Positions 2,711 to 49,212 of a stretch of 64,000 nt of DNA are shown piece after piece. A model generated the notes under the pieces. It had not been told where the DNA came from and did not search any database. It saw only the letters and a list, made by a program, of their open reading frames with translations. The position numbers were made by a program, and so were the translations under genes. This stretch comes from Paracyclopina nana (Eukaryota; Arthropoda; Copepoda; Cyclopoida; Cyclopettidae): NCBI GenBank assembly GCA_019096065.1, contig JAGUCH010000001.1, positions 16,926,001 through 16,990,000 on the forward strand, read 5' to 3'. How positions within the stretch are numbered: position 1 is the stretch's first letter; each line of letters opens with the position of its first letter.

Positions 2711-3954
2711 ATGGCAACTCCTTCAAAAATGGCAAAAAGCTCCATTTTCCTCCTTCTCGTAGCCCTGATTCTTGAAGTGGCTTTAGGGCAAAAACAGCTA
2801 CTAAAAGTCAGAGGCCGAGCAAGGCCAAAGCCCAAGTCATTCGCTCCGGTTCCGGTTGAGCCTCTCGTGAGCTCTTGCCCTGAGCCAATTGGGTTGCAAC
2901 TCTACCCTGATCCAGCCACGTGCAACCGATTTTTCAAGTGTGCCAATGGCACGTTGACGCATGAGACTTGCGAAAATGGCCTTCTGTTTGACAAGGCCAA
3001 AGCCTTTGCTGGAGCTGCCCACAATCACTGCAGCTACCATTGGGATACCGATTGCGACACGAGGCCCGCTGAAGACACCCCCATTTCGACTCCTGGATGT
3101 CTGTATCAAGTAAGTGGAATGAACAAATGCTTCTTTAGCAAGCTTGTACTGCAATAGTTATGGTTATGACAAGTAAACGCTGTGATTAATGTTACTTTCC
3201 TGAAATAGGTAAATGAAGAGCAAAACATATCACTTCTGAAGTGATGCTTTTCATCTTACGTAAAAAGCACTTAAAACCATATATATTGCTCTTGGCAGCT
3301 TAATTTGTTCAGTTTAGGGGGAGAAAATTGAGTTTGTATTGCGACATCTCTCTTATTATACATGTACGAGACTTGATTTAAAAAGAGGAAACAATGCAAT
3401 GTTTGCTTGGGAAAGTTTCCACTTGTGGCTGTTTTGATAGCGGAATGGGGAATTCGTCCAACTCAAATCAAAATGAGCTTAACAAGTTGCATTTCTCTTT
3501 AATTTTGGCGCAATAAGAAAACATCATTTTGAAAAGTAATTTGCAGTTTGCAAGTGACGCCGACAGATGAAGTTTCCTCCTTTTTTAGTTCGGAGTTTTC
3601 CCTGTTGACGAAGGCTGCCATCCGGATTACGTAACATGTGCGTTTGGCATTCCAACAACAGTAGCCTGTGATTTGGGTCTGGTGTATCAAGATAGCATCC
3701 ATGCTTGTAATTATCCTGACCAGTTAATAGAGGAATTGGGCTGCAATCCCTCAAGCCTTTTGGGAGGCTTCACTTGTCCACATCCAGACGATTTGACACC
3801 GTTGGCACGAAGATTTTTCCCCTATCCCAGATTTGCTGTCCAAGGTCGCGAAGATTTATACATCATTTGCGTGGACAATCAGCCCAGATTGCAATCTTGT
3901 GGAGCAGCGGCCATTTTTGATGCAGCCTCTCTGTCATGCTTGGAAACTTTTTGA
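2711..3954 (+). CDS. Obstructor/Gasp-like secreted chitin-binding protein
   Basis: Two exons, 2711-3109 and 3589-3954, join in phase 0 (donor GTAAGT, acceptor TTTTTTAG) and give 254 residues. The N-terminus is a signal peptide (hydrophobic core SIFLLLVALILEVALG). Three type-2 (peritrophin-A) chitin-binding domains follow: domain 1 starts at CPEPIGLQLYP and ends near HWDTDC; domain 2 starts at CLYQFGVFPVDEGC; domain 3 starts at CPHPDDL. The ISTPxC linker followed by a (Y)xFGxFP-type start is characteristic of the arthropod obstructor family, whose members organise chitin in the extracellular cuticle and tracheal matrix. ATG 2711 is used; ATG 2729 is an alternative that also keeps the signal peptide. 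Domain 3 is longer between its Cys residues than domains 1 and 2. Confidence 0.9.
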
Positions 3955-4964
3955 AATAGACACTTCTTCTTGCAGTTCATTTGAGTGCTTTAAGACTTCA
4001 TGCAAGCATTGTTGAATCAACAAGTTGTAGAACCTAAAAATATAGAACCTTTGCACAATACTGTGGCTTTTGGTGGCTGCAAAAAATGTCATGTTTGACT
4101 AGTTTAGTTTTTTATAATTGAGTTTAAACGCGATCGACGTATTTTGGTTTTTTCTAGTCTCATACGATTTCAAAAGAGAGCTTGACGTCACAGATATAAC
4201 CTTTAAGACAAAATCAAAGTTGTGAATTCTAGTCACTTTTTTAGCTCGATCGAGTTAAATGAACCTCCCCAATATCTTACAAATAGCTTGCTTTTTTAAA
4301 GGCTAGTTTGATTTTTAAAAATCCCACGAATTGATGAAGCAGCTTTTAAAAGAAGCTTGGATTTTTGGCATTTAGCAAAATGCCGATTTGCCAAAAATGT
4401 AATTTCGCACGACGTCACAGATGACGGGGCCCTAAAAATTTCCCAGCTTAGCTAGCTAACTAATTCAACTATAGCTAACGCTCACTTTGCTCAGCAGCTC
4501 AGCTACCGAAACTCATTTATGAGTCAGTATCATTCGACCTTTTTCTTAGCTGGTCATGTTGCTAAGCGTGCACTTTCGAGAATAATCCTAAAAAAGAAAT
4601 GTGCATTACGTGCGTGCTACGGCGTCTGTTCCAGAACGAGCTTTTTTGGCTACAGGAGCACGTTTGCTCCTGCAACAGGAAAATCAGAAGGTAGGCGGCA
4701 TTTTTTTCTTCTACCCCCCCAAAAAAAGCGGCGCTGTTGATTGAAGTAAAGAGCACGGAAGATTTTTACGTAACTACCTATTTAAAGGCGTTGTCCAAGT
4801 GGTGAAGGTTTTCACATAGCATGCATTAATTAAATTCGTTCAAGAACAGTCCATTAGAAATATGAAATATTAGAGCTGATTTTGAAATTTATCATGCTAG
4901 ATGGCGCCACTGTAAGCTAGTACAGCTGTTTACGCTTGATGCTTTGACGGAAAAGAGGAAAAAA
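3955..4964. other. Intergenic, no gene
   Basis: AT-rich spacer with short open frames lacking recognisable domains. Two GACGTCACAGAT stretches (near 4183 and 4411) repeat here, as does a GATGGCGCC box near 4900. Nothing supports a coding or RNA gene. Confidence 0.5.
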
Positions 4965-5471
4965 CAGAGTTATCAACGGATTTTTAGGCTTCCGACCACC
5001 TTTTTGGCCAAAAACGACCACTTTTGCGACCACAATTTTCAGTCCATTTAAAAACGACCACTTTTCCGACCACCCACACCAATATGGCCGAAACTAACAC
5101 AATTTAGGCATAAAATGTTCTTTTTTCATCTACAAAGTCTGTGTAAGCAATGTTTGTTTTAAGAAATTTGTCACTTAGGAAATTTTTTTTATAAGAAAGC
5201 AGAATTTTTATTTTGATGTCGCTCTTAGCAAAAAGTAGCCTTAAACACTAAGAGCTGTTTCTCATCTACATCAAGCTTTGATTCATATTTATATTGACAT
5301 TAATCTTAATTGCTAAGTCTCTACAACTAAGATTGTTTCCCAAAGGAAACATGTGCAAGTTTAAATCGGAATTTTGGTCCTTTTTTGACTAAAAGTGCCT
5401 ATTTTCAGCTAGTTTTGGTCAGTTTCAAAAACGACCACTTTTCCGACCACCGACCACCGTTGATAACTCTG
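4965..5471. mobile_element. hAT-like MITE with intact TIR and 8-bp TSD
   Basis: The 507-bp element begins CAGAGTTATCAACGG and ends with the exact inverse CCGTTGATAACTCTG. It is flanked on both sides by the same 8 bp, GGAAAAAA (4957-4964 and 5472-5479). An 8-bp duplication with a CAGAG start is typical of the hAT superfamily. No transposase frame is inside, so it is non-autonomous. The interior repeats an ACGACCACTTTT(C/G)CGACCAC motif near both ends, which may be a sub-terminal transposase-binding array. Confidence 0.88.
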
Positions 5472-5479
5472 GGAAAAAA

Positions 5480-6907
5480 TTCCGAAAAATAAATAATTTT
5501 ATGCTACGCACTAAAAGCTGTTAAAAAAGTTGCCTGTTTTTCGTAAAACTGCCCAAATCACTCATTACGTGATGACAAAAGTTTTTATCTGGTAGCACCA
5601 TAAAAGCCAACATTATTTAACTCTGCTCTGATTGGTCTAAAAAAGGCAGAAAAAGCCTTGCATTTGAGCGTAGGAAAATATAGAGGGAGCTCATTTCCTG
5701 CGTTTCTGAAAATTCCTCCGCTGATCTTAGGCCTCTGAATGCAGCACCTTTTCCATTTGCTTTCATATAAAAACTGATGATATTGTAGCATAAAACCAAA
5801 ACATGAGCAGTCATTTGAAGACATTTGCAAAATGTTAGTGTTTTCAGAGAATTTTCTTTTTGCCAAAGGCATAGTTCCAATTGATATTGAGTTCTTGGAT
5901 GAATATGCCATGCACAAACAGAGATTTTTTACCAAAATTGTTGTTGATAAAAATACTAATAAGTTTACTTTCATCATTTTCGAAAATACTCCATAGGTCT
6001 CAAGAAAAACTCAAAAATCCTTATTTCCCTTTGCTACGCCGCTGCGTTGATACTAGCTCTATTTTCACAATAGGGGGCGCTATTTACCCTCGACGGCAGG
6101 GGCTATTGAAGAGCTTTTAAAAAAGCATTTCCCCGCTTTTTTCACCTGATTGGCCTGATGTTTTTTTAACCTAGTAGCATGAAACGTGGCCGCGACTGCA
6201 CAGGCAGGGGTCAAATGCAAGCAAAACTTAGAATTTTTTTCTTAAATTACAAAATATATTTTGAAAAAAAAAATATGATGTATTCGACAGTGCAGTGTGA
6301 AAACAATGTGTTCGCCCGTTTCGCTGTGTTCGCCCGTGTTTGAAACGTAGCTTAGAAGGGATCCAATAATATTTCTCGAATTTTTGAGAAATCTTATGGG
6401 AAGGCCAATTCTTTGACAAGTTACGAATTGTTATTTAGCTGCCTCTGTAGTGAACATACTTCACGGCTTTTCACGCCAGGGCGCGCTGACTGCACAACTT
6501 AACAGAAGCCATCGTTCCTTATTGCAGTAGATTTTCAAGTTTTTCCTTTTTTAATGCTTTCTTAATTTATCCTTCCCTCCACTTAGCTCTCAACATTTTC
6601 CGTAGTTTCCTTTCTGAGTGAGATTCATTTTATTTTGCGCTGTCTTTCGTTGCAATTTAGGGCGTCAATTAAAAGTGTTGCTAAAAAGACAATTAAAAGT
6701 TGCTTTTTCGCCCTCCTTTTAGAGCCTAACTCTCGTAGCTCAACATTTTAGCCCAAGCTGTATGCGTATCTGAACCTTGATGTGATTTAATTAGGGATCA
6801 AATATCTGCCAAAAGCACTAAAATTACGAATTGGCAGATAACTACAAAATTGATTCCGACAAGATGCTTTAAATCGCCGATTTTGTTGGAGTAACAGATA
6901 GGTTGAT
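5480..6907. other. Intergenic, no gene
   Basis: This AT-rich spacer lies downstream of the HPS5 stop. The longest open frame (5585-5977, minus) has no recognisable domain and no splice or start context. No RNA gene or repeat array was seen. Confidence 0.45.
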
Positions 6908-9900
6908 TTACCTTCTAGAAAGTATTCCATTTGGGAGTTTGGGCGCAACTTTCATCAGCAGGTTTTTCGTTGCATTTCCGCCTACGCGATTCATAATTTG
7001 GAAAGCCACGTGTTCGAATGAAACAGCTGGAGATGGCGTGTCTAAATAGGTTGTGATCATTTGGCAGAAGTAAGAATCGCCATTTTGGTTAGCAGCCTGG
7101 TGAAAGTAAGGCTCCAAGCACTTTTCACTTTCGTCAAGAGTGAGCACAAACGAAAGTTCTTCCATCCTTTCTTCCTCGTTCAAAGCATCACTTATCAGCC
7201 TGAAAATACATTAACTGTAATATTTTTCCATAGTTCATTACATCTTGTCGTACATTTTGTAGCCGGGCCAAAATTGGGATTCCTTGCAAAACATAAGCTT
7301 TTCTTCTAGGCTAGTACAGGAAGTATTCATTAAACCAAAGCCCAACTGGATAAGACATTCATGGGAGGTGGTAGCCTTGATTTTTGAAAACATTTTGATG
7401 AAAAGTAAACGTGGGAAGGTCTTCTCTTTTGATGATAAATTGTCTTGTTTAAATAAATCTTCTTGTTGCAAAATCCATTTCCTCTCAAAAGAAATGCAAA
7501 GTGCTTTTTGAAGCCTCAGCTTGCCAGCTAGAATTTGGGCTGCTTTAAATTCATCATCTGGCTGAAGCATTTCATCAAGGAATTCTCCAAAAGAAGCAAG
7601 CTCATTACGCTTGCTTCTCTGCAGTGTAAATTCTAACGAGGCAGCGGCAAACAAGAGCTCTTTCAGAGTGAAAATGAACCCGAAATTGGCCAATATGTCC
7701 AGGCCGAAATCCTGATCCTGCTCAAAGGCAATGCTCAAGTAGGAAAAAAGCATGAGCCTGTTTGGTAAATAACCACTAGAGTAGACCTCGGAGTAGTATT
7801 TGAAAGCATCAAATATGTCTGGTAATGTGACTCTGTTGCTCTTTTTCTCTCCAGCTAAGAAGCTTTGTAAGAAGGCTGAAAACAAGTCAAAATCCATGCC
7901 AGCAGCATGGACTTCAAACAAATTCTGCAGCTCCATTTGATTGAAAAGTCTGTGGTTTTCCAATATGACTCGTGGATCCACGTGGAGACTGAGTATCTTG
8001 AAAGCGGCCTTTTTGCACAGCGTCTGGCCGTTTTCGTCCATTTCGTCTGGTAGCCCTGGTTGGATAAGCATTATGAAATCGCGCCACCAACAAACTAGTT
8101 CCTCGCTGTCAACAATTTCTTGTGCTAAGGTGAGCATTTTGGTGGAGTCGTTATCATCCTCAGAGTCAGTGGGAGATGCATGGCTGTCAGATAAGTCTTC
8201 TAGAGCGGTTTGAAGTCGACTTTTTGATAGTTGAATTAACTTTTTAGCCTTCAATGAGATCTTCTCTGACAGGAGTGAGGTGGCTTGACTTGTCATATCA
8301 CCTGGCAGGTTGAAGAAGCTTTCTAAATCCAAGTTGTCTTCATTGAAATCAAACCTCCCCAGCAAAGAAGAATGGGAAGAAGTTGGTGGCGTTATTGGAG
8401 GCTGTTTCCCATCATTTGCTTCCGCCATGTGTGGTTGAGGAGAATGTATTTTGAAGCCCTAAAACAACACACGAGAAAAAGCCTTAGAGTATGCTAAACG
8501 TATCTTGGGAATTAAGCTCATTGACGTTTGCAAGGCTCTTATAAGCTGAAGAATCACCTTTAGTTTCTTTTCAGATAAAACAAGTCCTCCTTTCTTGCTT
8601 ATCCTTGCTGAGATGGCAACAAGCTCTCCACGAGTGGTCAGTACATACGCCTGTTGATGCTGAACTCTCACCATTTTGATGGGCATTTTCAAGGTCTTCT
8701 CTAGAGTGATTCCTTTGGCAGTTGATCGAAGCAGGAACAGAGCTGTTGGACAGTAAGAAACGAGGATATCCATTACCACTGACGAGGAGGTGTTGATTGA
8801 TAGGACAAACATTTTGGTAAAGTTGTCTGCTTTCTTCTCGTGAGTCACTACTTCTTCATTCATTGTGTTGAGCATGTTCAGAAGGTTGTCTGAATTACTA
8901 TGAAAGAAGCACGTGGAAATGACATGCCCATCCAATCGTGTTCTACTGAGCTTTCTTCCTGGCCTGGAGACAATTATTTCCCCTCTGTGGCTGATAATGC
9001 ACCCACCAAACTTTCCCCTTTGCCTCCAGGAGGGCTTTCCAATTTCATTGAAAGTCTTGAGCCTGGTGTTGCAAATGACTGTCTTCACCCTGGATGAGGC
9101 CAATAATATGCCCAACGCTGGGCTCCAATCCATTTGAAAAATGGGAGCATTCAGCTCCAGAATTCTGGTGATGCTGGCAACTTGGCTATTCTATGTAAGA
9201 AATGAAATTAAAACGTGCTTTTCAGTATGAGGCATTCACGTTTTTTTCATCTTGCTAATTAGTATACAAGGAAGAAACTTTAATAATGCCATCTCTCTCT
9301 GGAGAGAGCATGATAATGGCGTATACGTATACTCACTTTGTCAACGTCTAATTTGGAGACAATTCCAAGATTGGTGCCCACAAAGACTGAAGTGGCTGCA
9401 ATGACAATTTCAGTAATGATGCACGTATTTAATACATCAAAGAACTGAGGCAGCAGCTCAGGTACGTTTCCCACTGGTAGTGCACTTTGGGTGACTTGCA
9501 TGTAGATTCCAATGAGGCCTGACTTGAAGCCAATGACAAGCAAGTCTGAGCTCTTATCAAATGCAACTTGTTGAATGGTTTCTTCATTTGGAAAGCTTCG
9601 TATTTGGCAGATTTCTTGCAGTTTCTCATTTTGCTGATCGATCAGATGCACTGCATTTCTCCCTTTGAACACAATGCATATAACCTCATCACTAACGTCA
9701 AAAAAGGCCACCTGAAAGTCACTTGAAAAGTTTTATTTGCCAAATAAGATCTTTTTATCTTATGGCCGCACTCTTTCTATTTCTTATCAGATTGGTCCCA
9801 ACTTTAGCTTGCTTTTAAAGGAAATAAACAGAAACGCTTAGCAACTTTCGCATGTGCCTGGCTTTTACCAAATTATGTATGAAACAGCGCAGTTTTTATC

Positions 9901-9968
9901 ACTCTGTCTAATGATGCTGAAAATAGGTGGGATTTTTATTTTGCCTAGCTTACCTCCTCTTCCTCCAT
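6908..9968 (-). CDS. HPS5: HPS5-like BLOC-2 subunit
   Basis: Five exons: 9968-9954 (MEEEE only), 9711-9337, 9190-8558, 8458-7242, 7199-6908. All junctions keep frame and give 843 residues. The N-terminal half reads as a beta-propeller. The stretch from ICNTRLKTFNEIGK through ISRPGR to LDGHVIST matches the HPS5 block with CDTE, IGNK, CARPG and (F)DGEVI(S/K)T. The C-terminal half is helical and keeps the FWPGY landmark of HPS5. In animals HPS5 works with HPS3 and HPS6 in BLOC-2, which routes cargo to lysosome-related organelles. The protein is shorter than the roughly 1,100-residue vertebrate form, lacking part of the first propeller blade and of the linker. TECPR2 shares the propeller, but FWPGY favours HPS5. 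Confidence 0.85.
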
Positions 9969-10039
9969 TTTGTAAATCTTGTGTCTGGCAAAAAAAGTGA
10001 TGCAACAACTCAATGTAACACACCTTGTTATCTAATATT

Positions 10040-11598
10040 TTATTTGCTCAGTTTTAAACTCGACAGTCCAGCTCGAATGTTGATAGCATTCGAGAAGCCG
10101 TAGTAAATCAAATAGATAATGATGAAGATACTGAACAGAATGGGAAACAGGAAAATTGAAATTTTGTCTGCTTTCCGCGCAAAACTGAGCACTTTTTCAT
10201 ATGCGTCTCCCTTGGGCTCATTTCTAATAGGGAATATCTTGAGCAGAATCACGAGATACTCGATGATGGTGGCAAAGATGAATGCATTCATGGCAGTCAC
10301 GAAAACGTCCAAAGCAGTGGGCGAATCTGAGTTTGGACTGTTGTCAGAAATGTACAGTGACATTTGCACGTTGACCAAAAAAAGGGTGATGAGCATGCAC
10401 ATTCGATCGTTGCCTTCGAGGGGAGGAATTAGAAAGCCAATAAATGCTGACGCCACAAAAAGCACGAGTGGTGCATAGAATCTGTTGACATAAATGCCAA
10501 ACTTCCTCTGGAAGCTCACAGAGAATCCACTCACGCTGAAATTCGTGCCTCGAAAATTCGTTTCTACGAAGGCCAATTCGGAGCCTTCAAGGTCGAATTC
10601 CGTGGGCCTTCGCAAGTCATCCCTTATAGTAATATTTCCACTTAATTCAGCCTTGCTTGCATCCAGAGTTCGATGTCGTAAGAAGAACTCGCATTCGAAG
10701 CCATCAAATGGGAAATTCCAAAAGCTCATTTGCGGGCAGGAATTGGTGAACGTAATTTCCATAATGGCTTTCACTTTGGTAATTTTTGCCGAGGATTTCC
10801 ACGAAATGTACAGACCGAGAGAATTTTCTCGTATGAAAGGTGGAGCCAGTGACTCATGAGAGTTGGTGATCAGGTGTGGCAGCCATATTAGGTTGATGAT
10901 GTCTTGATTCAATGCCAATGTGGTGTCATCCTGGAAAAAGAGCTTTTTCTTGTTGATAATATGTGGTATACACTGTCAGACATGCGTAAGAAGCTTTTCT
11001 TCTTTGCCTGTAGGGTCGTCAAAAGAACAAAAAAAAGCCATGACATCAAAGAAATTAATTTTCCACCTGAATATGCAAGTTTATGAAAGTGATGAGACAA
11101 TTGTCTCCCGGCCTATCTCTTACCTTTTTAAATTAAATTGGCAAAGTGACATGAAAAGGCCATATATGGGAAAAGGCTGTGGCTAAAATCTTTTTTTGCC
11201 ACAAGGGTAGTAATGAATGAGATAGCGCTTTCATAAGAGTTATTTCGCAACAAATGTCACCCGATTTTTTTCTAGTTGATGTGTAATGAAGTAAGCTTTC
11301 TTACTACTGCCAAAATTCTGCTGTCTGTCCAAACCAGAGTTAAAAGCAGCTTGGTAATCCAAGACATGCTCTCCTCATCAATGTAAATGTCCATAACGTC
11401 CACATCAGCCTCTATCTTCATCTCGCCTTCTTCATTCACTTCCAAGGGTGATGCAATGCCAGAGTAGTTTTCAAACAGGCAAAATGACTGGCCTGAAATC
11501 AGGCCATTTGGTCCACATTGGGGAATTTCGCACACTACTACAGTGGATTGAAGCTCGAAAGCAATAAAAATACTCAAGTAAATGATTGCCTTGGTCAT
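10040..11598 (-). CDS. Cys-loop ligand-gated ion channel subunit
   Basis: Two exons, 11598-11305 and 10930-10040, join in phase 0 (donor GTAAGA, acceptor TTTTTCCAG) and give 394 residues. A signal peptide (KAIIYLSIFIAFELQ) is followed by the ligand-binding landmarks WTDSRI and IWLPHL, then the Cys-loop CPQMSFWNFPFDGFEC. Four TM helices follow: FYAPLVLFVASAFIGF, MCMLITLFLVNVQMSLY, VFVTAMNAFIFATIIEYLVI and IFLFPILFSIFIIIYLIYY, with a short M3-M4 loop. It is a pentameric neurotransmitter-gated channel subunit at the plasma membrane. The Cys-loop has 14 residues between cysteines instead of the usual 13. The segment before M2 reads GNDRM, with Asp where anion channels carry Ala-Arg, so cation selectivity is a weak inference. 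The ligand is unknown. The AATAAA signal overlaps the stop codon. Confidence 0.9.
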
Positions 11599-12922: not shown

Positions 12923-15900
12923 TTATGATGCAACAGCTTGGCTGTCAGTTGAGTTATGGGTAGTGGTAATTGTCTGCCTGGAACCATGGTTAGCTCCATT
13001 ACCTCTTTTGCTGGAGCTAAAAATCAGAATCACAGTCCAAAAGCACCAGGCAATGAATTTGCAAATGCCAATGCACCATGAGCTAGTGATGGAAATCAGT
13101 TCAGCCCGGAAAGTTTCTTCAACGAGGCAGTAAACAATGAAATTCACTGAGGAGTTGAGGACGAGTAAAAAGTTGTTGGCGCTTATCATCACGTAGAGGG
13201 CCACAGGGACATGGAATTTGCCTTGCATGAAGCAGTAGCTGTGGTGCTTGGCAGTGGTATGAGATGGGTGGGTAACTTCATATGCCTGCATGGAGAGAAA
13301 GAGGCAAACATTAGACCTATGATGAATTTCATTTACTGTTGTAATTTATTAATTGCTTCGCAGCGAAGTAGTTGTTATGCTGCTCAAAAGGGGCGCAATT
13401 CCACTGCTGCCATTTTACAGCGCCAATGCAACAAAGCTCAAATGTGGTACAGCTCAAATGCGGTATAGCTTAAATGCGGTATAGCTTAAATGTGGAACAG
13501 CTCAATTGCGGAACAGCTCAAATGGGGTAGGGCTCAAGTGCTGTAAGGCTCAAATGAGGCAAGGCTCAATTGCGGAACAGCTCAAATGGGGTAGGGCTCA
13601 AGTGCTGTAAGGCTCAAATGAGGCAAGGCTCAAATGCGGTAAGGCTCAAATGAGGTACAGCTCAAAAGTGGTAAGGCTCAAATGCTGAACAGATCAAATG
13701 CAGTATAGCTCAAATACTGAAGAGCTCAATTGAGGAACTTGCGGAACAGCTCAATTGCGGAACAGCTCAATTGCGGAGCAGCTCAATTGTGGAACAGCTC
13801 AATTGTGGAACAGCTCAAATGCGATAAGGCTCAAATGCGGTAAACTCAAATGTGGTAAGGCTCAAATGGGGTACAGCTCAAAAGCGGTATGGCTCAAATG
13901 CAGTAGAGCTCAAATGCAGTAGTAAGGCTCAAATGCAGAAGTAAAGCTCAAATGCGGTAGTAAGGCTCAAAAGCGGTAAGGCTCAAATGCAGTTAGGCTC
14001 AAATGCGGGAAGGCTCAAATGTGGTACAGCTCAAATGCTGCAAAGCTCAAATGCAGTGAAACTTCAATGTGTTGAAGCTCATATGCAATAGAGCTCACTT
14101 TTGGTAGATCTAGAAAGCGGTAAATCTCTATTGCGATAAAGCTTACATACAGTAAAGCTTGCATGCAGTGATGCTCAAATGTGACACAGTTCAGCTAGCT
14201 AAGGGCTAGCTCGAAATAGTTAAGCTGAAGCTCAAATGAGGCAGAGGCCAAATGCGATAATGCTCACAGATTTCAATGCTTTATTTAGTTAGACGTTTTG
14301 TGGAAGCCCTTGTTACTCTTGTTTAAATTATCTCAGTGACGTACTTGCGCAGTTAATTGATCAACCTTGTGAGATGGCTTTTTAAAAATCATGTGCACAT
14401 CAAAGTCATTATACAGTATGCAGCTTAGACACGGATGCATAGCTTGTTAACATAAATTGCCGCAAAAGGCTCAAGGAAAAGTATAGCAATCTGAGCATAG
14501 TTGTACTTGCCTGCAAGGAAAACCTGAACATGTGGCAGAACAGGAAGATGAGGACGATAGATACGAGAATGATGGTCGATTTTTCCCTTCGTTTTCGGAT
14601 GTGCACCTGGCCTGGCTCGTATCGATGCAGGTTTTTGTTCAGGGGCTGCGCCTCTGAGGATCCAGGCATCTAGAAAAGGAAGAAATCCATAAATCTCTTT
14701 TGCAAGCAATGATTCTTACAGTACAGCAAACACGGCGTTACAAATACACACTCAACAAGATTAGAGGCCAATTCACAAAGCTTAAGCTTTTTTGCATTGG
14801 AGGTCTTGTTTTTTTGCTGGCTGCTCCCAAAACTACCAAAACTTTCTTCAGCAGCTCAACGTGGGAAAATGGAAAAAATTGTAGTATGCTCACTCGGTTA
14901 CTGCTGCTCGTTTCAGACTCTGATCGTTGAAGCTTTGCAGGTTTGCCTCCAACTGCCTCACCATTGGCACCAATTCCACCATTCTCATTACTTCTTTTAG
15001 CATTGTTTTCGGAATTGGCCCCTGCCAGAGCTTGGGCATTTTTGGTAGGATCCGAGCTAGCTGCCACGTGAGTGGACGCAGCTGCTGAGGAACTGACCAA
15101 ACTCGATCCATGCTGTAGGCCCAATCTTGAGCAGAATCTGTGCTTGAAGGACATTTTCGTCCTCTGGTGGTGCTTACAGCTGGTGGCAGCTATGACCAAG
15201 TCAGCCTGCTGCTGCCTCGAATTCTTCTTGCAATTCAGCTCCAGGCATTGGGGACAAGAGCAAGAGCATCCCATGGCATCACTGAGCTTGAGGTAGGCGT
15301 GTCCGCAGCAGAATCCATCCACTTGGGGCAAATCATCTGGCATCAAGTCAGACGACAGAGGGGAAGTGAGTGAAGTGCCAGCCTCACCTTTGCCACCACG
15401 AATAAATCTTCCAGAAGAGAGCTTTCTTTTGATGCTGCTGCACCCTTTGATGGGTGGCGTTGCCAAGGAGGATCCATTGAGTGAATTTTTGGCTTTCTTA
15501 AACACACAATGGCAGCAAGGTCCATTTGCTGTCTTTGCATGCGTCGTTTTGAACGAGCTGCTTCTTGAGTTGGCGTTTTTGGCCGAAGAAGAAGAAGCTT
15601 TGATTTTGGAGGTGGCTGTGGACCTGCTGGCATCCCCGTTGGAATTGGGCTGGATGAGGTCGTTGTCAGTGCTGCTGTTGGTCTTGGCAGTCGTGTTATT
15701 GGCATGTATGTTGTTGCAGGTCTGGGAAGACTGGTAGCGTCTCCCAATGAAGTGAGGGTGGCAGACGAACCTGTAGCGGTAGTTCGTGGATGCCCTGTAA
15801 ATAATGCAGCGTTTTGAAGAGATAATTAATGCGTGTGGTGTCAGCTCTTTTTCACCTTATTTTCATGTAGATTCGTATGTTGAAAAAGACCAGGGCCACA

Positions 15901-18900
15901 AAGGGAGCGAAGCCAGTGGCAAAAAGCTCGTCCCACCAGCCGCTGAACCGAATGTAGTCCTCGTTTTCGCTTAGAGGTGTTGTCCAAAAATCAGTATTGT
16001 TGCTTACCAACTAAAGACAGAAAACGTGCTGTTAATAGTGATTACTGCCAAAAATTGAGGCCCATCATTAATTTTTTTAATCATCTCTGGGAGAGTAATT
16101 TTCTTTTACCTGGAACTCCAAAAACTTGGGAAAGTTTTGCAACAGGGAGACGATGAAGACAAACAAAATGTACTGCCATGAGGCAGGCCTATGCCTCAAT
16201 GGATAGCATATGGCCTTATACCTATAGAAAAGCATGATTAATTAAAATTCAGTTGGTGCTCTACAATCAGAAGCTAGACAAGCTTGATGTATTTTTAAAG
16301 CTTAGACCCCTTTCGCCAATATTACGGAAGAATTAACATTTTAAAGCCATTTTCCGCTAATTTTTCGTCACGTTTTTATCCCAAATTGGCTGAATTGCAC
16401 AGCCAAAAATTATCCTGATGTAGACTTGACACGCAACTTAGGCGTGTTACTAGGGGGAAATATATCCACATTTTCCTTAAAACTTTTCCTCCAAAATTCT
16501 TCCGTTTCGAAGGAGAATACTTGGATATTGGAAAATGAAAGATGAATTAGCTGTTAAAATGAACTTCAAAGGAAATTGACATCGTTCAGCTCTGCCATGT
16601 TAATACCAAAAAAGGAAAAGTTGGGTTGCTTTCTTCCTTGGATATCATTAGCAAATTAGCCAGGTTAATTTGCTCACTTTTCTATATAGCCAGTTAAGTG
16701 TGTTTACCTTTCTGCAGAAATGGCTACAACCATAAAAATAGAAGACGAGAGTGTAATTGCTTTGCCAGGATGTAGAAAATGGGGAAAAGCAACTCTATAC
16801 CAGACAGGTATGGAGTCCATCGTTCCAATAATAGAGGAATCCAACACGTAGAATACAATGAGAACGCAATCAACAACAGCCAGAGTCATCAGCAGTTGGT
16901 GGAAGTTGGATCTCGACCTCTGCAACGAAAATTACACTCAGCCTCTCATAAATTACACATCAGCTACTTTTACTGCATGGTAAAAAGTAGTATTTTAATG
17001 CTACTTTTGAGTGGCTTCGCACTCTAATACTTAGCCATATAGTAGAAGAGGAGCAAAAAGTGAAAGCTCTGTTTTTACCCTCGAAGCAATGAGAATTAGC
17101 TTCCATACGAGGAAATTGCAGTGAAGAGTACAAGTGACAAGTTAATTTTTACCTGTCTCTTGAGGACTCTCAAGGTGATCAAATTGCCAAGCATGCCAAA
17201 GGCTCCGGTGAGCGAGAGGAAAACACCTTCCAGCCAAAATTTGACGTTGACAACAAACTTGGTGTGAGTTTTGTATTCCTGGTGGCAGGTGAAGTTTTCA
17301 GAGTGGTATTCCAAATCCATGGTGCTGGGGTCGTCAGAGTTGCCAAAAGTTGGCTGAGTGCTGCGAAAATCTTCGAATGTGGTGCCTAATGTGGGCGTTG
17401 CCTTCATTGGCTATCGAATTAGAAAGCAGACTTTTAACTAAATTCCTGATGTAGTATATTTTTGATTAACGTATCAAAATAGGTAATACGCGCAAGTTTG
17501 TTTTAACTTAGGCTTGTGTGGGCTGAGATTCTTAATAACCTAGCTATGTATATTGCATTTGATTCATGAATCAAGATTATGAACCCAAATCTCAGGAAAG
17601 CTTCAGATCAGAGCCAAAATCAAGCTGCGTAACAAAAATTGATTGCTTTCGAATTGAGAGTACAGCAACCATATTTTTACTGGAAAATTCCACGTCTCTT
17701 AGTAGTCTTAGAAGTCTTAAAAGTGACCAAGTTGGAAAAGTTACCTTTTCTGACAGTCCAACATAAAAGTCGTTGATAGAATGTTTGCAATTGCTTTGGC
17801 CATCGTTGATGGCATTTCGAGCAAAGATGAAGCAGTGATCAGTCGTGGTTAAAATGTCCCTCTGAAAAAAATCCATTTAAATTGTATTTTTTGATATTAT
17901 GCTGCTCTCATACCTTATTGCACACCGAATGCCATAGGCTTCTGATCTGCCATGTTTTCTTCATCCAATGCTCTTTGGCTGGATTGTCTGGCACCTCTTC
18001 TTCCATACTGGTCGTACTCAGCTGACAAGTGATGTATCTGTTCCACTCAGAGTCTAAGCCTTGGTCCAGTATCTTGGACAATGGATAGGAGGGTGTTTGC
18101 TCTTCACTTTTATCCTCATCCAGACGAATCATGGCTTCAATCCTGGGGCAAAATCTTGAAGACATGCTGTGGTACCAGTGCAGCAATGCAGCTGTACTAT
18201 TACACCTGAATTGAGCTGTATCTGAATTGTTGTCCGATACGTCCACAGCTCGTTCCATTTCCACCTTGAGCCTTTCAACGCACTGGCCAGCATTTGGAAT
18301 ACACTGAAAAAGAAGAGCAAAAAAGAATTACTCACTCTGGCTGTATTAAGAAAAATACAATTTGAGCATTTGTTATTGCTTGCAGCAGTGTATTCTGTGG
18401 CTGTAGTATTTTTCTAGCCGCGGCTGAGGAATATTGATGAATCGATAATTTCCTGAACAAACACTCCTCTTTTTCCACAAGTCTATGCCCAAAACATCAT
18501 GTGCAAGAATAAGAGGAAATACTACTAGTAGCATGACAGTGCTCCCTGTTACTGCATCATTTCTCTTCAATCAATCAAAATGAGAGACGTAAGATACAGC
18601 TTTTAAAAACGAGCCTTGTGTAAGCTAGAGCCCTTGATTTTGATGAGAGTATCTCGTTCTCAACAACAGCTGAACTTTTTTGTGACAAAATTTACTAAGG
18701 TACAGCTCAAACTACAGCTCCGATCGGAACGAAATTTTGAGGAGTTCATGGTTTCTCGGTACAAAAACCAAATTGCGAATAAAAATCGCATAACATAACA
18801 TAATAAACGGTGGGACAAAAATGGGCAGTTGTCGTGCTACGGTAGGCCGGCCACCTTTAGGCGGTTTTTGTGAACTGAGTTTTGAGAACGTTGTATTCAT

Positions 18901-21036
18901 CAAAATAGAGAGCTCTAGTGTAAGCAATTAGAGTATTTCTTACGTAAGATTCACTCACCAAATTGCTTTTGCGGCGCTTAGCCTCGTCACCACACAAGAT
19001 TTGCCTGATGATTCCATCATTGCCTTTGCTATCAGCAGGCGTGCTCACGTTTTGAATGCACTTCGTAAAGTTGCTCCAGTAAGACAAGTTGGACAGGAAA
19101 GTCTGGCCTCTTTTGAGCCCCTCGCAAACTCGCATTTTGAGTGCCATCAATTCAGTGGAATTGGCAACGAGGTCACTGATTAGTTTGGCTGGATGGCTGG
19201 TGTTACGAGAGCAGTAACTGCCTTTCCTCATGATACTGGAGTCCAATGGGATTTTGGTATTGTTTGCCCCATTATTGATAACGGGCTGCGAGGGTCCCAG
19301 TGAAGTTGAGGAGGATTCAGAGGTCCTTTGAGTCACCGTTTTGGCCAACTCGATGATGGTCCGCACGCAAAACAGCAGCTTAGGTGCATACTTGCTCTGG
19401 AACTAAGGAATAATCATGCCAAAGAACTGATAGCACATTCATCAAAATGCAGTTAGTACAGAAGACAAGACATTTGTAGAAAATGTGGGTATATATGCTT
19501 TGCCAATTTGGCAGGCTTTTCAAAAGTAGCATACCTCCAATTTTCCATCTTCTCCATCAGCATAGGGCTCGTCACAAAGAATATGTCTGACTGTCATGAT
19601 TTTGGAGGCTGATGAATTGCCATGAGCCCCTTGGAGAACGCAAATGATGAAATCTGTCCAATAGGCCATCTCATTTGGGGTGACATGAGGCTCATCCAGG
19701 GCTTGGTCTGGGCTCCGCATGCAAAACTCCATTTTGTGCTCCCTGAACCATTTCCAAGAAGCACTGAGAGCTCTGATGATTTCTTGGGGATTCTTCTTCT
19801 TGGGCTTGTGTGTGGTAGGAGGAACGCGATAGCCATCTGTATGAGCCATGGTGGCCACGTAGTACTCGTCTGTGGTGGTGAAACCATTCGGTGTGGTTGG
19901 CACATACAAGAATGGCGTGGTACTATTGGTCATTGACAGCTCGGCAGGCCTGAAAAGAAACGAAAACCATTCCTTTTTCAAACGTTTTCATGGAAAAATT
20001 TTCCTAGAGGGCGCTGCGTAGGGCACTAATTGTTTGAGGTGACCCAGCACGGCGGGTGCTCCTGTGAATGTTAGAAAAAGCGGCCCGGCCCGGCGGTGTT
20101 TTTCCCACTGCGCAGCGCCCTCTAGCGTACGAATCTTAATAGCTCTCTAATACAGAAGAGCACATTTGCTTTTGTTGGTATCAGAGCTAATAGCCTTAGT
20201 GGAACTTAGTTGCGGTATTTTAGCACAGAGTGGCGCTTCAGTCGCTCATCGGGGCAGTCCGAAAAAAATGCTCTAAAACTCGGTTTAAACTTAGCTGAAA
20301 ATGCCAAACTCCCTTCAATGCGTCGAAATATCATCAAGTTTGCCTCAAAAGTCCATTAAAACCCACTGAAACCCTTGAATTACGAAAATAATCTGCCCCG
20401 ATGGAGCTCCCAGCGCCATCTCGCGTAGGAATTATCCCTACTCAAAACTGTTGTTCCACTAAGGCTATTAATGCAAGTGTGCTCTTCAAGGAATATTGTA
20501 CAGCTTTAAAAAAGCAGTATTTGAAGAAAATCCCGGCTTACCCTCCGTTATTTGGTAGATGTCGCATAGACGAAGAAGCCATGGGCTTGCTAGTTGATCT
20601 ATACTGCAGTATCATGGTGACAATGTTCCCTGGCAAGCACAGAATCGACATGACAGCTATGAGCTGAAACAGCGAGCCATGCGACTTGACGAAATTGATC
20701 ATTTTCTGCGGGAAAGTGGGCTTTTGCTGGATGCGAACTCCCACTGGGTCAATGTTGTACACGTCGAACTCATCAGGATGCCTTTTGTATCTGGAGCAAC
20801 CTTGACTGCTGGTCGTATTGTTGCTGCTCGAGTGGTAGTTTTTGCCGTAATTCTGCGACCCAATCCTCCGCATTTTCTGCTTATGCGAGGAAGAAGAGGA
20901 ATCTGCAGCCACGCTACTTTCACCAGGTCTGCAAAAGGAAAAACACATGTGCTGTATAATTTTTCCATTAAAATACTAATTCTTTTTTTGCAACTTACTT
21001 GGTCCCTTTTTGCCTTTTTCGCTTGAGGAGTACCAT
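12923..21036 (-). CDS. Chimeric receptor: N-terminal TM + Cys-rich repeats + FMRFaR-like 7TM
   Basis: Thirteen exons join in frame: 21036-20999, 20928-20605, 19949-19535, 19402-18959, 18303-17914, 17861-17745, 17410-17153, 16919-16708, 16221-16110, 16010-15856, 15794-14894, 14669-14511, 13285-12923, giving 1,295 residues. Residues 1-98 are basic and Ser-rich, then one TM (about 99-119). Exons 3-6 encode a glycosylatable Cys-rich ectodomain with repeated motifs. Exon 7 opens the 7TM core (GAFGMLGNLITLRVL). Family landmarks are SAERYKAICYPLRHR, an RIYMKIRASTNYRYRF segment after TM5, YEVTHPSHTT after TM6 and NSSVNFIVYC in TM7, typical of FMRFamide-type peptide receptors. The third loop is about 300 residues. 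The alternative is two genes, with the 7TM starting at ATG 17407; against it, exon 7 is open upstream into a good acceptor and no AATAAA lies between. N-in, one TM, ectodomain, 7TM, C-in is a consistent topology. Confidence 0.7.
13436..14275. repeat. Intronic 15-16 bp minisatellite
   Basis: Roughly 50 degenerate copies of a unit like GGCTCAAATGCGGTAA or AGCTCAATTGCGGAAC stand head to tail. A 62-bp higher-order block is duplicated near 13500-13630. The array fills most of the last intron (13286-14510) of the chimeric receptor gene. Copies decay in sequence toward 14275. Confidence 0.92.
20004..20125. mobile_element. Short inverted-repeat element (MITE-like)
   Basis: CTAGAGGGCGCTGCG (20004-20018) and its exact inverse (20111-20125) bracket a GC-rich interior in intron 2 of the chimeric receptor gene. 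No convincing target duplication is visible, so it may be a very short MITE or a stable hairpin. Confidence 0.5.
20188..20470. mobile_element. TA-flanked MITE, family A, copy 1
   Basis: Perfect 18-bp ends, TAATAGCCTTAGTGGAAC and its inverse, bracket 283 bp inside intron 2 of the chimeric receptor gene. A nearly identical copy lies at 57465-57744. TA at both borders is consistent with a Tc1/mariner-type target duplication. There is no coding capacity. Confidence 0.82.
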
Positions 21037-46265: not shown

Positions 46266-49212
46266 ATGCATTTGCTCATGGAAAGGCCTAACGAGAGTGA
46301 TTGGATGATCGAGGCTGGGGAATTGGCCCAACTCAAGATGGAGGACGAGTCCCTGTTCAACACAGTTTTGGACAAGTACCGATCAGCTTGGGACGAGGAG
46401 TCTTTCAGCTTTCTCGAGAATGTCGTGCACACCATGGGCAAAGAGCACTATAAGGTCCTCAAGCACACCACTATGGTCGAATATGACAACCTGGAGAACC
46501 AAATTAGCGTTTGCATGCCAGAAAACTCGACGAATCATCTCTTTGAAGAAATGAGATATTGGGTTACTGGCATCGTCAGTGTAAGTAGCTTTCTCCTTTT
46601 ATTGCGTGATTAAGCCAAGCTCAATGACGTCGTAGTATTTAGTGTTTTTCATCTTATTTTAGCATAGGGCTACCAAAAGAGGAATTACTTTAAAAAAACA
46701 GAATATTGTAGCTAAAAACCTAAATCTCAGCGCTGAAAAAGTCTTTTTCTAAGGGCAGAGAACGTTTTTAAGGTTAAAAGCTTTGATGGTGAATTAGCAG
46801 GAATTATCGCTTTTTTTTAAAAAAAAAGTGCCGCATAAGATAGTCATGAATGGCAATTATATCCTTTTAAATATTCAGTGAGGTTTCAGTCAGTAATTCG
46901 TATGTACACTTAGCGCCGCTATTTTTCGAGGGGCATAATACGTCATGAGATATGTATTCGATGCGATATGATAATAAGGGCTATGTTTCATTTTACAGAG
47001 CCATCTGGTGGTGATAGGCGTCATTCTGAATGTGATAGGCATAAAAATTCTCTCGGAAAGGAAGCCGAGCTCTCTTTTCAACTATTTGTTGATAGGCTTA
47101 CTGATCAATGAGTCGCTGTATTTGGTGCTGACAGAGCTGCAGCTTATCTTCACCGACCACCTGGTAACTATTTCCTTTTTATTATACCAAAAGTAACTTG
47201 TGCGCTTAAAAGAAACAGACATTAGCTCAATTTGTCATATGGCTTCTTTGGAGAAATTTGCCTGAAATTCTTACCAAGGCTAATTCAACTCGATGTAAAA
47301 TACAGAATGCGGCTCCGAAAATGCTCTGAAGAAGTAAACAAAAATTGCTGTATCGGCTGTAGCGCGGTTGCAATTTCGGGGCCGCAACCTGCACATCTGA
47401 TTATGCAAATTATTTCAACATTTCTGCTAATTTTGCAGAACGATCGGCACATCGCACTCGTCAACTTTTTCACCTATTTCCTGCTGGAAGCTCGGCCTTG
47501 GCTGCTCTACGCCTCGATTTACATCACAGTCCTCATGGCTCGCCAGCGGTATTTGGCCATTCAGCACCCTGTGGAATACAGGGTGGCTCAGCTCCACTGC
47601 AAGCCCAAAAAGCAGGCCATATTGACGATCTCTGCAGTCCTCGTATTGACCCTGATCCTATGCATTCCACTCTTCTTCGAGCCCATGATTGTCTATGACA
47701 CGCATCAAATTAGGAGCAACATCAACGAGACGCACATGATACTCGTAAATACTATATTTTCATGCAGAGCATGCATATACCCTAAAAGTTGCTCTTTTTC
47801 CATTACGCAGAGAAACGAGACGAGCTGGAAGATAATGCCAGCCCCTCTGAGACTCAATCTGCACCATGTCACTTGGTACAGATCTTTGGCGGATCTCCTG
47901 GGCTCCATAATCATACCGTTTGGACTGTTGGCCTATTGGAACTTCAATACGGCTTCAGTGCTGCAGCGCAGGCAAAGAATGCGTTTCAGGCCTCACCCTA
48001 CGCTCTACAGCTCTCCTCCTCATCAGCAGCACCACAACAATGACCCAACTAATTGTAAGTAGAAATTCATTTTAGTTAGGCCTAATAGCGGTGCTTGAAA
48101 AGAAATTGCGCTCGTTATTTTGGTCTTGATCGCCTCAAGTTACACAAATTAATTAGGTTTATTTTCGACAAAATAGGTGAAATTGAGGTATCTCGGATTT
48201 CGCCTCATCAACAGCAGCAGCAGCAAGTGAATAACAACCACCAACAAGGTGCAGTGAGATCTGCACTCATCAAAGCAGACGAAGCTCGAAAGGCCAAGGT
48301 TCTTTTTGCCATTGTATTCATGGTGGCATTGAGTAACATTCCAAGATTGATAATGTCAGCCAACGAGGCCGTGCACATCATACCAAACTACTTGAATCCA
48401 GATAAAGAGTAAGTCTAATGCCTTAATTTAATGAAAAGCCCTCAAGTTTTCCCTTGAGAACCAGTAGTTGTTATCTCTTCTGTAGCCAGCAGAGATCCGT
48501 TATCAGCATTAGTTTTCAGCTGTATCCAGATGTATCCAGCTTTTCTTAGCTGCTATCAAACAAAATCTTTTTTGCTGCAATCAGCGGTTTCCAGATTTGA
48601 TCAGCTTTTATCATTTGCAATCAGCTGATTTCAGCTGTAATCAGCTGTTGGCAGTTGTAATCAGCTGTAGGCAGTAGTAATCAGCTGCGATCAGTTGTAA
48701 TCAGCTGTGGGCAGTTGTGATCAGCTGTAATAAGCTGAAATAGCTTTAATCAAATGTAATTAGTTGTAATCAGATGTAATCAGCTGTAATCAGCTAATAT
48801 CATTTTGGCAAATCAGTAGGGATATATCTATCAGTAAGAAACAGCTAAAATATATCATAAATGAACATTCAAAGAATCACGCAGCATTTCTGTACTTTTC
48901 TGTTGCAGTGGGAAAATTCCATGCTACGTTCTGCAAGATTGGACTCATTTGATGAACGTCTTGTCCAATTTCATGCTGGTGACCAATGCAGCCAGTGTCA
49001 CGCTCATCTATAGCATGATGGACCGTAAATTTCGACAAGACTTCTACAACTCAAAAATCTGCTGGCTTTTCTCATGCTTCAAATGTGTTTACAAATGGGT
49101 AAATGCCAGGAGACACGAGAACTCTCCTCTTCCTCCTCAATCGATGGCCTTGGAGGACTTGGCCAATCGAAATCCTGACGTTGAAAGTCGTATCAGCCAA
49201 ATCCAGAGCTGA
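46266..49212 (+). CDS. Class A peptide-type GPCR (FMRFamide-receptor-like)
   Basis: Six exons: 46266-46580, 46999-47163, 47439-47744, 47811-48054, 48177-48408, 48909-49212, giving 521 residues in frame. An N-terminal extracellular stretch of about 100 acidic residues (with NES and NST glycosylation sites) precedes TM1 (VVIGVILNVIGIKILSERK). TM3 ends in MARQRYLAIQHPVEYR, so the E/DRY motif is QRY. TM5 is SIIIPFGLLAYWN, TM6 VLFAIVFMVALSNIPRLIM and TM7 FMLVTNAASVTLIYSMMDRKFR, where NPxxY is replaced by NAASVTLIY. The third loop is His/Gln-rich. Overall layout resembles arthropod FMRFamide/peptide receptors. No ligand can be assigned. The start follows an acceptor-like TAG by only four bases, so an unseen 5' exon or trans-splicing is likely. 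Confidence 0.85.
48500..48805. repeat. Intronic CAGCTG(T)AAT minisatellite
   Basis: Degenerate repeats of AATCAGCTGTAATCAGCTG and GGCAGTTGTAATCAGCTG, roughly 9-18 bp periods, fill much of the last intron of the peptide GPCR. The unit holds a palindromic CAGCTG E-box, so the array is a dense run of E-boxes. Confidence 0.9.

Follow-up and report, generated by a model that had tools for sequence, protein, structure and literature searches.

A predicted eight-helix class A peptide receptor with a large cysteine-rich ectodomain in the copepod Paracyclopina nana, and paralogous receptors that share its N-terminal helix

We analyzed a 64 kb stretch of the genome of the copepod Paracyclopina nana (C1:16926001-16990000; hereafter, the window), which contains a gene for a putative neuropeptide receptor on its minus strand. 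With 80 matches to the RR cuticle family PF00379, which is typical of arthropods, the genome is recognizably that of an arthropod. Class A receptors have seven transmembrane (TM) helices and an N-terminus that lies outside. The window gene very probably encodes, as one gene, a class A peptide receptor with eight helices: an extra N-terminal helix, which we call TM0, then a long ectodomain, and then an ordinary seven-helix (7TM) core. The first-pass annotation had predicted a signal-anchored ectodomain joined to a peptide-receptor-like 7TM core, and this prediction is supported by seven paralogous receptors with a TM0 and by the grouping of these carriers in trees. It had also called the receptor chimeric, which does not seem apt: TM0 is common to a receptor clade, and what sets the window gene apart from the other genes that we modeled is just its large cysteine-rich ectodomain.

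The 13 exons of the gene model run from 21036 to 12923 and, with every end where it had first been placed, join to 3951 nucleotides (including the stop codon) that are open throughout and encode 1316 residues (Table 1). Splice phases are consistent at 12 of 12 junctions; 11 of the introns are GT-AG and one, after exon 12, is GC-AG. The segments that exceed our hydropathy cut-off are residues 102-120 (in exon 2), TM1, TM2, TM4, TM5, TM6, TM7, and residues 1267-1285. Residues 102-120 are the sole segment of exons 1-6 to do so, in agreement with the earlier claim of one helix before the core. TM3 is under the cut-off, and we located it from ERY and from an alignment with the paralogs. Translation may begin at M88 rather than at M1, because three of the modeled relatives (C4, C2b, and C1c) can begin near TM0.

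From its Pfam match and its motifs, we classify the protein as a class A (rhodopsin-like) G-protein-coupled receptor (GPCR). The family 7tm_1 matches exons 7-13 (30.4 bits, E = 3.5e-7, with a cut-off of 30.5 bits and a match that spans the long third intracellular loop), and TM3 of the joined protein ends with (D/E)RY (SAERYKAICYPL). Solved class A peptide receptors match the core as well. The Pfam scan gave 7tm_1 only, with no GAIN domain or 7tm_2 core, as would mark an adhesion GPCR. Within class A, the gene resembles the FMRFamide-receptor-like neuropeptide receptors of arthropods in its 7TM core, in its ERY, in the NSSVNFIVYC of its TM7 (which we take to be a signature of that family), and in its pre-TM1 segment, with a cysteine and often an N-glycosylation site. 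(This label is our assumption, made from motifs.) Unlike those receptors, the window gene has an extra N-terminal helix, a very large cysteine-rich ectodomain, and a third intracellular loop of 300 residues.

When the 7TM core was used to search the genome (92 megabases in ten contigs), 126 stretches matched, including the window gene's own exons. We examined 27 receptors for TM0, including the window gene; these were picked mostly as the best matches, and for one of them (C6d) we used motif and hydropathy scans only. In seven other class A peptide-receptor-like genes, a hydrophobic TM0 segment, typically with the motif [LIV]PGN[ILV][VM]T, precedes the 7TM exons by no more than ~2 kb. Some were found by scanning the fetched loci for a hydrophobic segment with [CV][LIV]PGN[ILV][VM]T upstream of a 7TM exon, and others, with an altered motif, by a hydropathy scan (Table 1). 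The 7TM core also matches further receptors in the genome, and those that we scanned showed no TM0.

Two of the paralogs back the eight-helix reading independently, because their TM0 shares an open frame or an exon with the core. In C8a, a single open frame has TM0 near residue 50, a 68-residue loop (in which an in-frame intron is possible), TM1, TM2, and TM3, and the Pfam 7tm_1 match begins at residue 148 of 357, well past TM0. In C2a, ~30 residues separate TM0 from the conserved pre-TM1 segment in the same exon, which is too short for an ordinary intron. Ahead of the 7TM exon, the window gene, C2b, and C1c all have a phase 0 intron.

A leave-one-out profile of TM0, from which the gene being scored was always excluded, finds seven of the eight carriers at 9.5-32.5 bits: C4 (32.5), C2a (31.8), C1c (29.4), C2b (24.8), C9 (19.1), the window gene (16.9), and C8b (9.5). 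It misses C8a, whose best score (4.9 bits) falls elsewhere. For all 12 of the non-carriers, the profile scored at most 4.1 bits on the sense strand, across 1.4-5.5 kb upstream (for three of them, only ~1.4 kb). On the antisense strands of all 20 genes (8 carriers and 12 non-carriers), it scored at most 5.7 bits. Six further receptors gave at most 3.1 bits, except for C3c (see below), and at most 4.0 bits on their antisense strands. At the codon level, exact matches to the pattern [LF]PGN[LIVMF][IVM]T number six genome-wide: the window gene, C2b, C4, and three unrelated frames that are not hydrophobic by eye.

We also compared the 7TM cores by building trees from query-anchored alignments on the window protein. 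These trees are unrooted and cover part of the family, and we left out genes with under 100 aligned columns (from a 19-tip tree, C6d and C3b; from a 23-tip tree, into which C6d was not entered, C3b, C8c, and C3c). In the 19-tip tree, the 8 carriers split from 11 non-carriers with a support of 0.995 (FastTree) or 96 (IQ-TREE ultrafast bootstrap). In the 23-tip tree, they split from 15 non-carriers (0.986 or 94). The predicted eight-helix layout is thus a feature of a receptor clade. The window gene and C2b are neighbors, with weak support (0.68-0.76; 68-70). Their pairing is of interest because C2b is the only other gene with a cysteine-rich ectodomain among the five modeled relatives.

A few other candidates and observations concern TM0 or its carriers. 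A look-alike of TM0 on contig C9 near 4831480 (FFPINVASFLGHF; L044, reverse strand, 1-198), which has its own Met, was not counted, as the stretch that was read shows no 7TM frame downstream of it. Five stretches of viral contigs matched a pattern for relatives of C8a, and none of the five was confirmed. The TM0 profile scored 15.9 bits on TM1 of the C3a receptor (L030), while other 7TM pieces scored at most 4.1 bits. That score is no more than suggestive of an origin of TM0 from TM1; more speculatively, TM0 may be a TM1 that was duplicated in inverted orientation. Upstream of the C4 receptor (L036, ~3200-6700), repeated translated frames mark what appears to be a large region of tandem and inverted repeats.

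Between TM0 and TM1, the window protein has ~530 residues with 17 cysteines and 11 N-x-S/T sites, so the earlier description of a cysteine-rich, glycosylatable ectodomain of ~500 residues was accurate. The corresponding segments of its relatives have 30 (C2a), 68 (C8a), 72 (C4), 104 (C1c), and 149 residues (C2b, with 9 cysteines), and the window gene is the most elaborate of the modeled TM0 receptors. Exons 3 and 4 are repeats of each other (z = 8.8; 0 of 1000 shuffles scored as well). Pfam has no family for exons 1-6 (E up to 1) or for exons 3, 4, or 5 singly (E up to 5), and the same scans found no leucine-rich repeats. When we compared the ectodomain to the genome (E up to 10, best candidates scored), all four matches were to the window gene itself. 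Exons 3 and 4 had two matches among solved structures (E = 1 and 1.9), which we took to be chance.

Exon 3 ends in phase 0, and each of exons 4, 5, and 6 both starts and ends in that phase, so exons 4-6 could be duplicated or skipped with the frame intact. Together with the Met at 17407, this raises the possibility of alternative promoters or splicing, with a short 7-TM form that starts at ATG 17407 besides the 8-TM form, and with ectodomains of varied lengths if exons 4-6 are skipped. We view such alternative forms as possible but doubtful; they would be compatible with an eight-helix receptor.

If the receptor has eight helices and its G-protein face is inside, then the N-terminus must be inside too, which would make TM0 a type II signal anchor. 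We counted lysines and arginines in the 13-18 residues on each side of TM0. In C4, C2a, C1c, C8a, and C8b, more of them are on the N-terminal side, which favors a cytosolic N-terminus. Alternatively, TM0 might be a signal peptide that is cleaved, and the mature receptor would then have seven helices and a large free ectodomain, as in the glycoprotein-hormone receptors. The short basic N-termini of C4 and C8a could pass for those of signal peptides, and the start of the window gene could be M88. However, in five aligned TM0 segments, the hydrophobic stretch extends for several residues on either side of the conserved PGN, and a hydrophobic run of that length is long for a signal peptide. Cleavage therefore seems unlikely to us. 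As for the topology in the first-pass annotation, the single helix before the ectodomain stands, but its placement of the tail inside is not settled, because residues 1267-1285 are hydrophobic and lie after TM7.

This hydrophobic stretch beyond TM7 is one of several results that weigh against an eight-helix receptor made from a single gene. No excess of lysine and arginine on the N-terminal side of TM0 is present in the window gene, C2b, or C9. The non-carrier C3c scores 7.4 bits with the TM0 profile, on a stretch that lacks the motif, and this is near the 9.5 bits of C8b. (The open frame of C3c itself has an ordinary acidic N-terminus.) As a control for the codon pattern, the reversed motif has two matches in the genome itself. 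The presumed link of TM0 to the 7TM core in C9 and C8b is a matter of nearness and the profile, while the putative homology of the TM0 of C8a, which the profile misses, is a matter of position and P-x-N-V. In C4, the intron before the 7TM exon is in phase 1. Within the ectodomain, exon 5, exon 6, and the cysteine-rich exon of C2b had been suspected by eye to be kin to the repeat in exons 3 and 4, and none of them had a significant likeness to it in shuffles. Finally, the acceptor of exon 7 (tgctttctaattcgatag) scores -0.7 bits, which is the lowest among the twelve acceptors, and a rival AG at 17624, which would give a phase 0 terminal exon of ten codons that the first-pass annotation had not listed, scores higher (1.2 bits).

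Because the acceptor of exon 7 is weak, we took seriously the idea that there are two genes. Exons 1-6 would then be the gene for a type II membrane protein, with its end in a short exon after 17624 (where the stop is ten codons on from the rival acceptor) or with read-through into the intron, and exons 7-13 would encode an ordinary 7TM receptor from ATG 17407, a Met that is just one codon into exon 7. The acceptor scores are from a leave-one-out matrix for the window gene's own introns (eleven sites), so small differences mean little. An in-phase AG at 17353, inside exon 7, scores 0.5 bits, or slightly above the acceptor of exon 7. An AG at 17715 scores 8.6 bits, but with it the intron would shrink to 29 bases. 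As had been reported, exon 6 ends and exon 7 begins in phase 0, and there is no AATAAA in the gap (17744-17411). Nor is there an ATTAAA, although the gap does hold AGTAAA (17681) and AATATA (17554 and 17460). If there were two genes, this gap of 334 bases would have to contain a promoter as well. It had also been argued that the frame of exon 7 is open upstream of its first Met. It is open into the acceptor, but for one codon only, so this point has little weight. Overall, splice evidence alone leaves the join between exons 6 and 7 unsettled, and in our judgment it is the paralogs that decide the main point. The TM0 in exon 2 resembles the TM0 of seven paralogous receptors, and TM0 lies in the open frame of the receptor in C8a and in an exon of the receptor in C2a, so we consider two genes to be highly improbable.

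If one gene does encode an eight-helix receptor, it would be transcribed and spliced as one message, and TM0 would act as an uncleaved N-terminal signal anchor, so that the N-terminus stays in the cytosol while the ectodomain that follows is translocated. TM1 would then bring the chain back into the membrane, as the first helix of an ordinary 7TM core, which would signal via a G protein upon binding a neuropeptide. Tethered at both ends, the ectodomain could form a loop or lid above the ligand pocket. In the window gene, this loop would have expanded to its cysteine-rich, glycosylatable form partly through duplication of an exon-sized unit. We tentatively suggest a broader idea, which may well not hold: that a lineage of arthropod peptide receptors has a fixed and working eighth helix. 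The PGN signal anchor would pack against the 7TM bundle, and TM0 and TM1 would hold the extracellular segment as a double-anchored lid, whose length evolves freely, up to the partly repeat-built 530 residues of the window gene.

Some known receptors share parts of this layout. The class A receptors with leucine-rich repeats (LRRs), for glycoprotein hormones and relaxin, combine a class A core with a large ectodomain; they have a cleaved signal peptide or an LDLa module, plus the LRRs. In contrast, the window ectodomain has no Pfam domain and begins at a membrane anchor. The CRF2(a) receptor has an uncleaved pseudo signal peptide and in this way resembles the window gene, whose N-terminal hydrophobic segment is probably not removed either. 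Unlike the window receptor, CRF2(a) is in class B, and its pseudo signal peptide is not known to be an additional membrane helix that a whole clade conserves. Searches of the open-licence literature showed no description of this architecture, which is weak evidence of novelty. One paper discusses predictors that call eight helices by mistake (PMC8557429).

If our reading is correct, there is a clade of receptors with a conserved eighth helix at the N-terminus, with that terminus in the cytosol and the ligand-facing segment tied at both ends. One would then make, tag, and assay such receptors differently, and the way to assign ligands to them would change too. Also, a pipeline that annotates genes on the assumption of seven helices may trim such receptors or break them up.

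Table 1. Features of the window gene (positions within the window) and the paralogous receptors with TM0 (contig and position)
Feature	Position	Strand	Description
Exon 1	20999..21036	-	Basic N-terminal start MVLLKRKRQKGT; translation may begin at M88 (exon 2) instead
Exon 2	20542..20928	-	N-terminal region with TM0; phase 2 at its end; scores 16.9 bits with the leave-one-out TM0 profile
TM0 core	20607..20663	-	Residues 102-120, LIAVMSILCLPGNIVTMIL; family motif LPGNIVT
Exon 3	19535..19949	-	Ectodomain; Cys/Trp repeat copy 1 (W..F..C...ILC)
Exon 4	18959..19402	-	Ectodomain; repeat copy 2; phase 0-0; z = 8.8 vs. exon 3
Exon 5	17914..18303	-	Cysteine-rich ectodomain; phase 0-0; likeness to exons 3 and 4 not significant
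Exon 6	17745..17861	-	End of ectodomain; phase 0-0
Critical intron (exon 6/exon 7)	17411..17744	-	Weak acceptor; no AATAAA or ATTAAA
Rival short terminal exon	17592..17624	-	LDFGSDLKLS and stop, after acceptor tttttgttacgcag; judged less likely
Exon 7	17153..17410	-	Pre-TM1 segment (ENFTCHQ..FWLEG) and TM1; second in-phase acceptor at 17353
Exon 8	16708..16919	-	TM2 and TM3 (..SAER, then Y across the junction)
Exon 9	16110..16221	-	TM4
Exon 10	15856..16010	-	TM5
Exon 11	14894..15794	-	Unusually long, Ser-rich third intracellular loop, ~300 residues
Exon 12	14511..14669	-	TM6; GC donor
Exon 13	12923..13285	-	TM7 (NNFLLVLNSSVNFIVYC) and C-terminal tail with a further hydrophobic stretch; stop, with AATAAA a few bases beyond
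C4	C4:6363442		TM0 from motif scan; modeled splice from TM0 to 7TM exon is in frame
C2a	C2:2831589		TM0 from motif scan; TM0 and pre-TM1 segment in one exon
C2b	C2:9847476		TM0 from motif scan; modeled splice from TM0 to 7TM exon is in frame
C1c	C1:7264053		TM0 from motif scan; modeled splice from TM0 to 7TM exon is in frame
C8a	C8:3101886		TM0 with altered motif VPYNV, from hydropathy scan; TM0 and TM1-TM3 in one open frame
C9	C9:4825999		TM0 with altered motif VPSIV, from hydropathy scan
C8b	C8:5941248		TM0 with altered motif LPINM, from hydropathy scan

Much of intron 12 of the window gene, between TM6 and TM7, is filled by an array (13433-14181) in which a 16-bp unit (AAAGCTCAAATGCGGT) recurs in ~47 degenerate copies. 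Elsewhere in the window, there is a second class A receptor-like fragment on the plus strand at 47226-48059 (7tm_1, 25.9 bits, which is under the cut-off), and a secretin/adhesion-type 7TM, also on the plus strand, at 397-1551 (7tm_2, 49.4 bits). Beyond the receptor on the same (minus) strand, 8462-10975 holds an HPS5-like beta-propeller (48.6 bits) and a frame that resembles a Cys-loop channel, with scores under the cut-offs.

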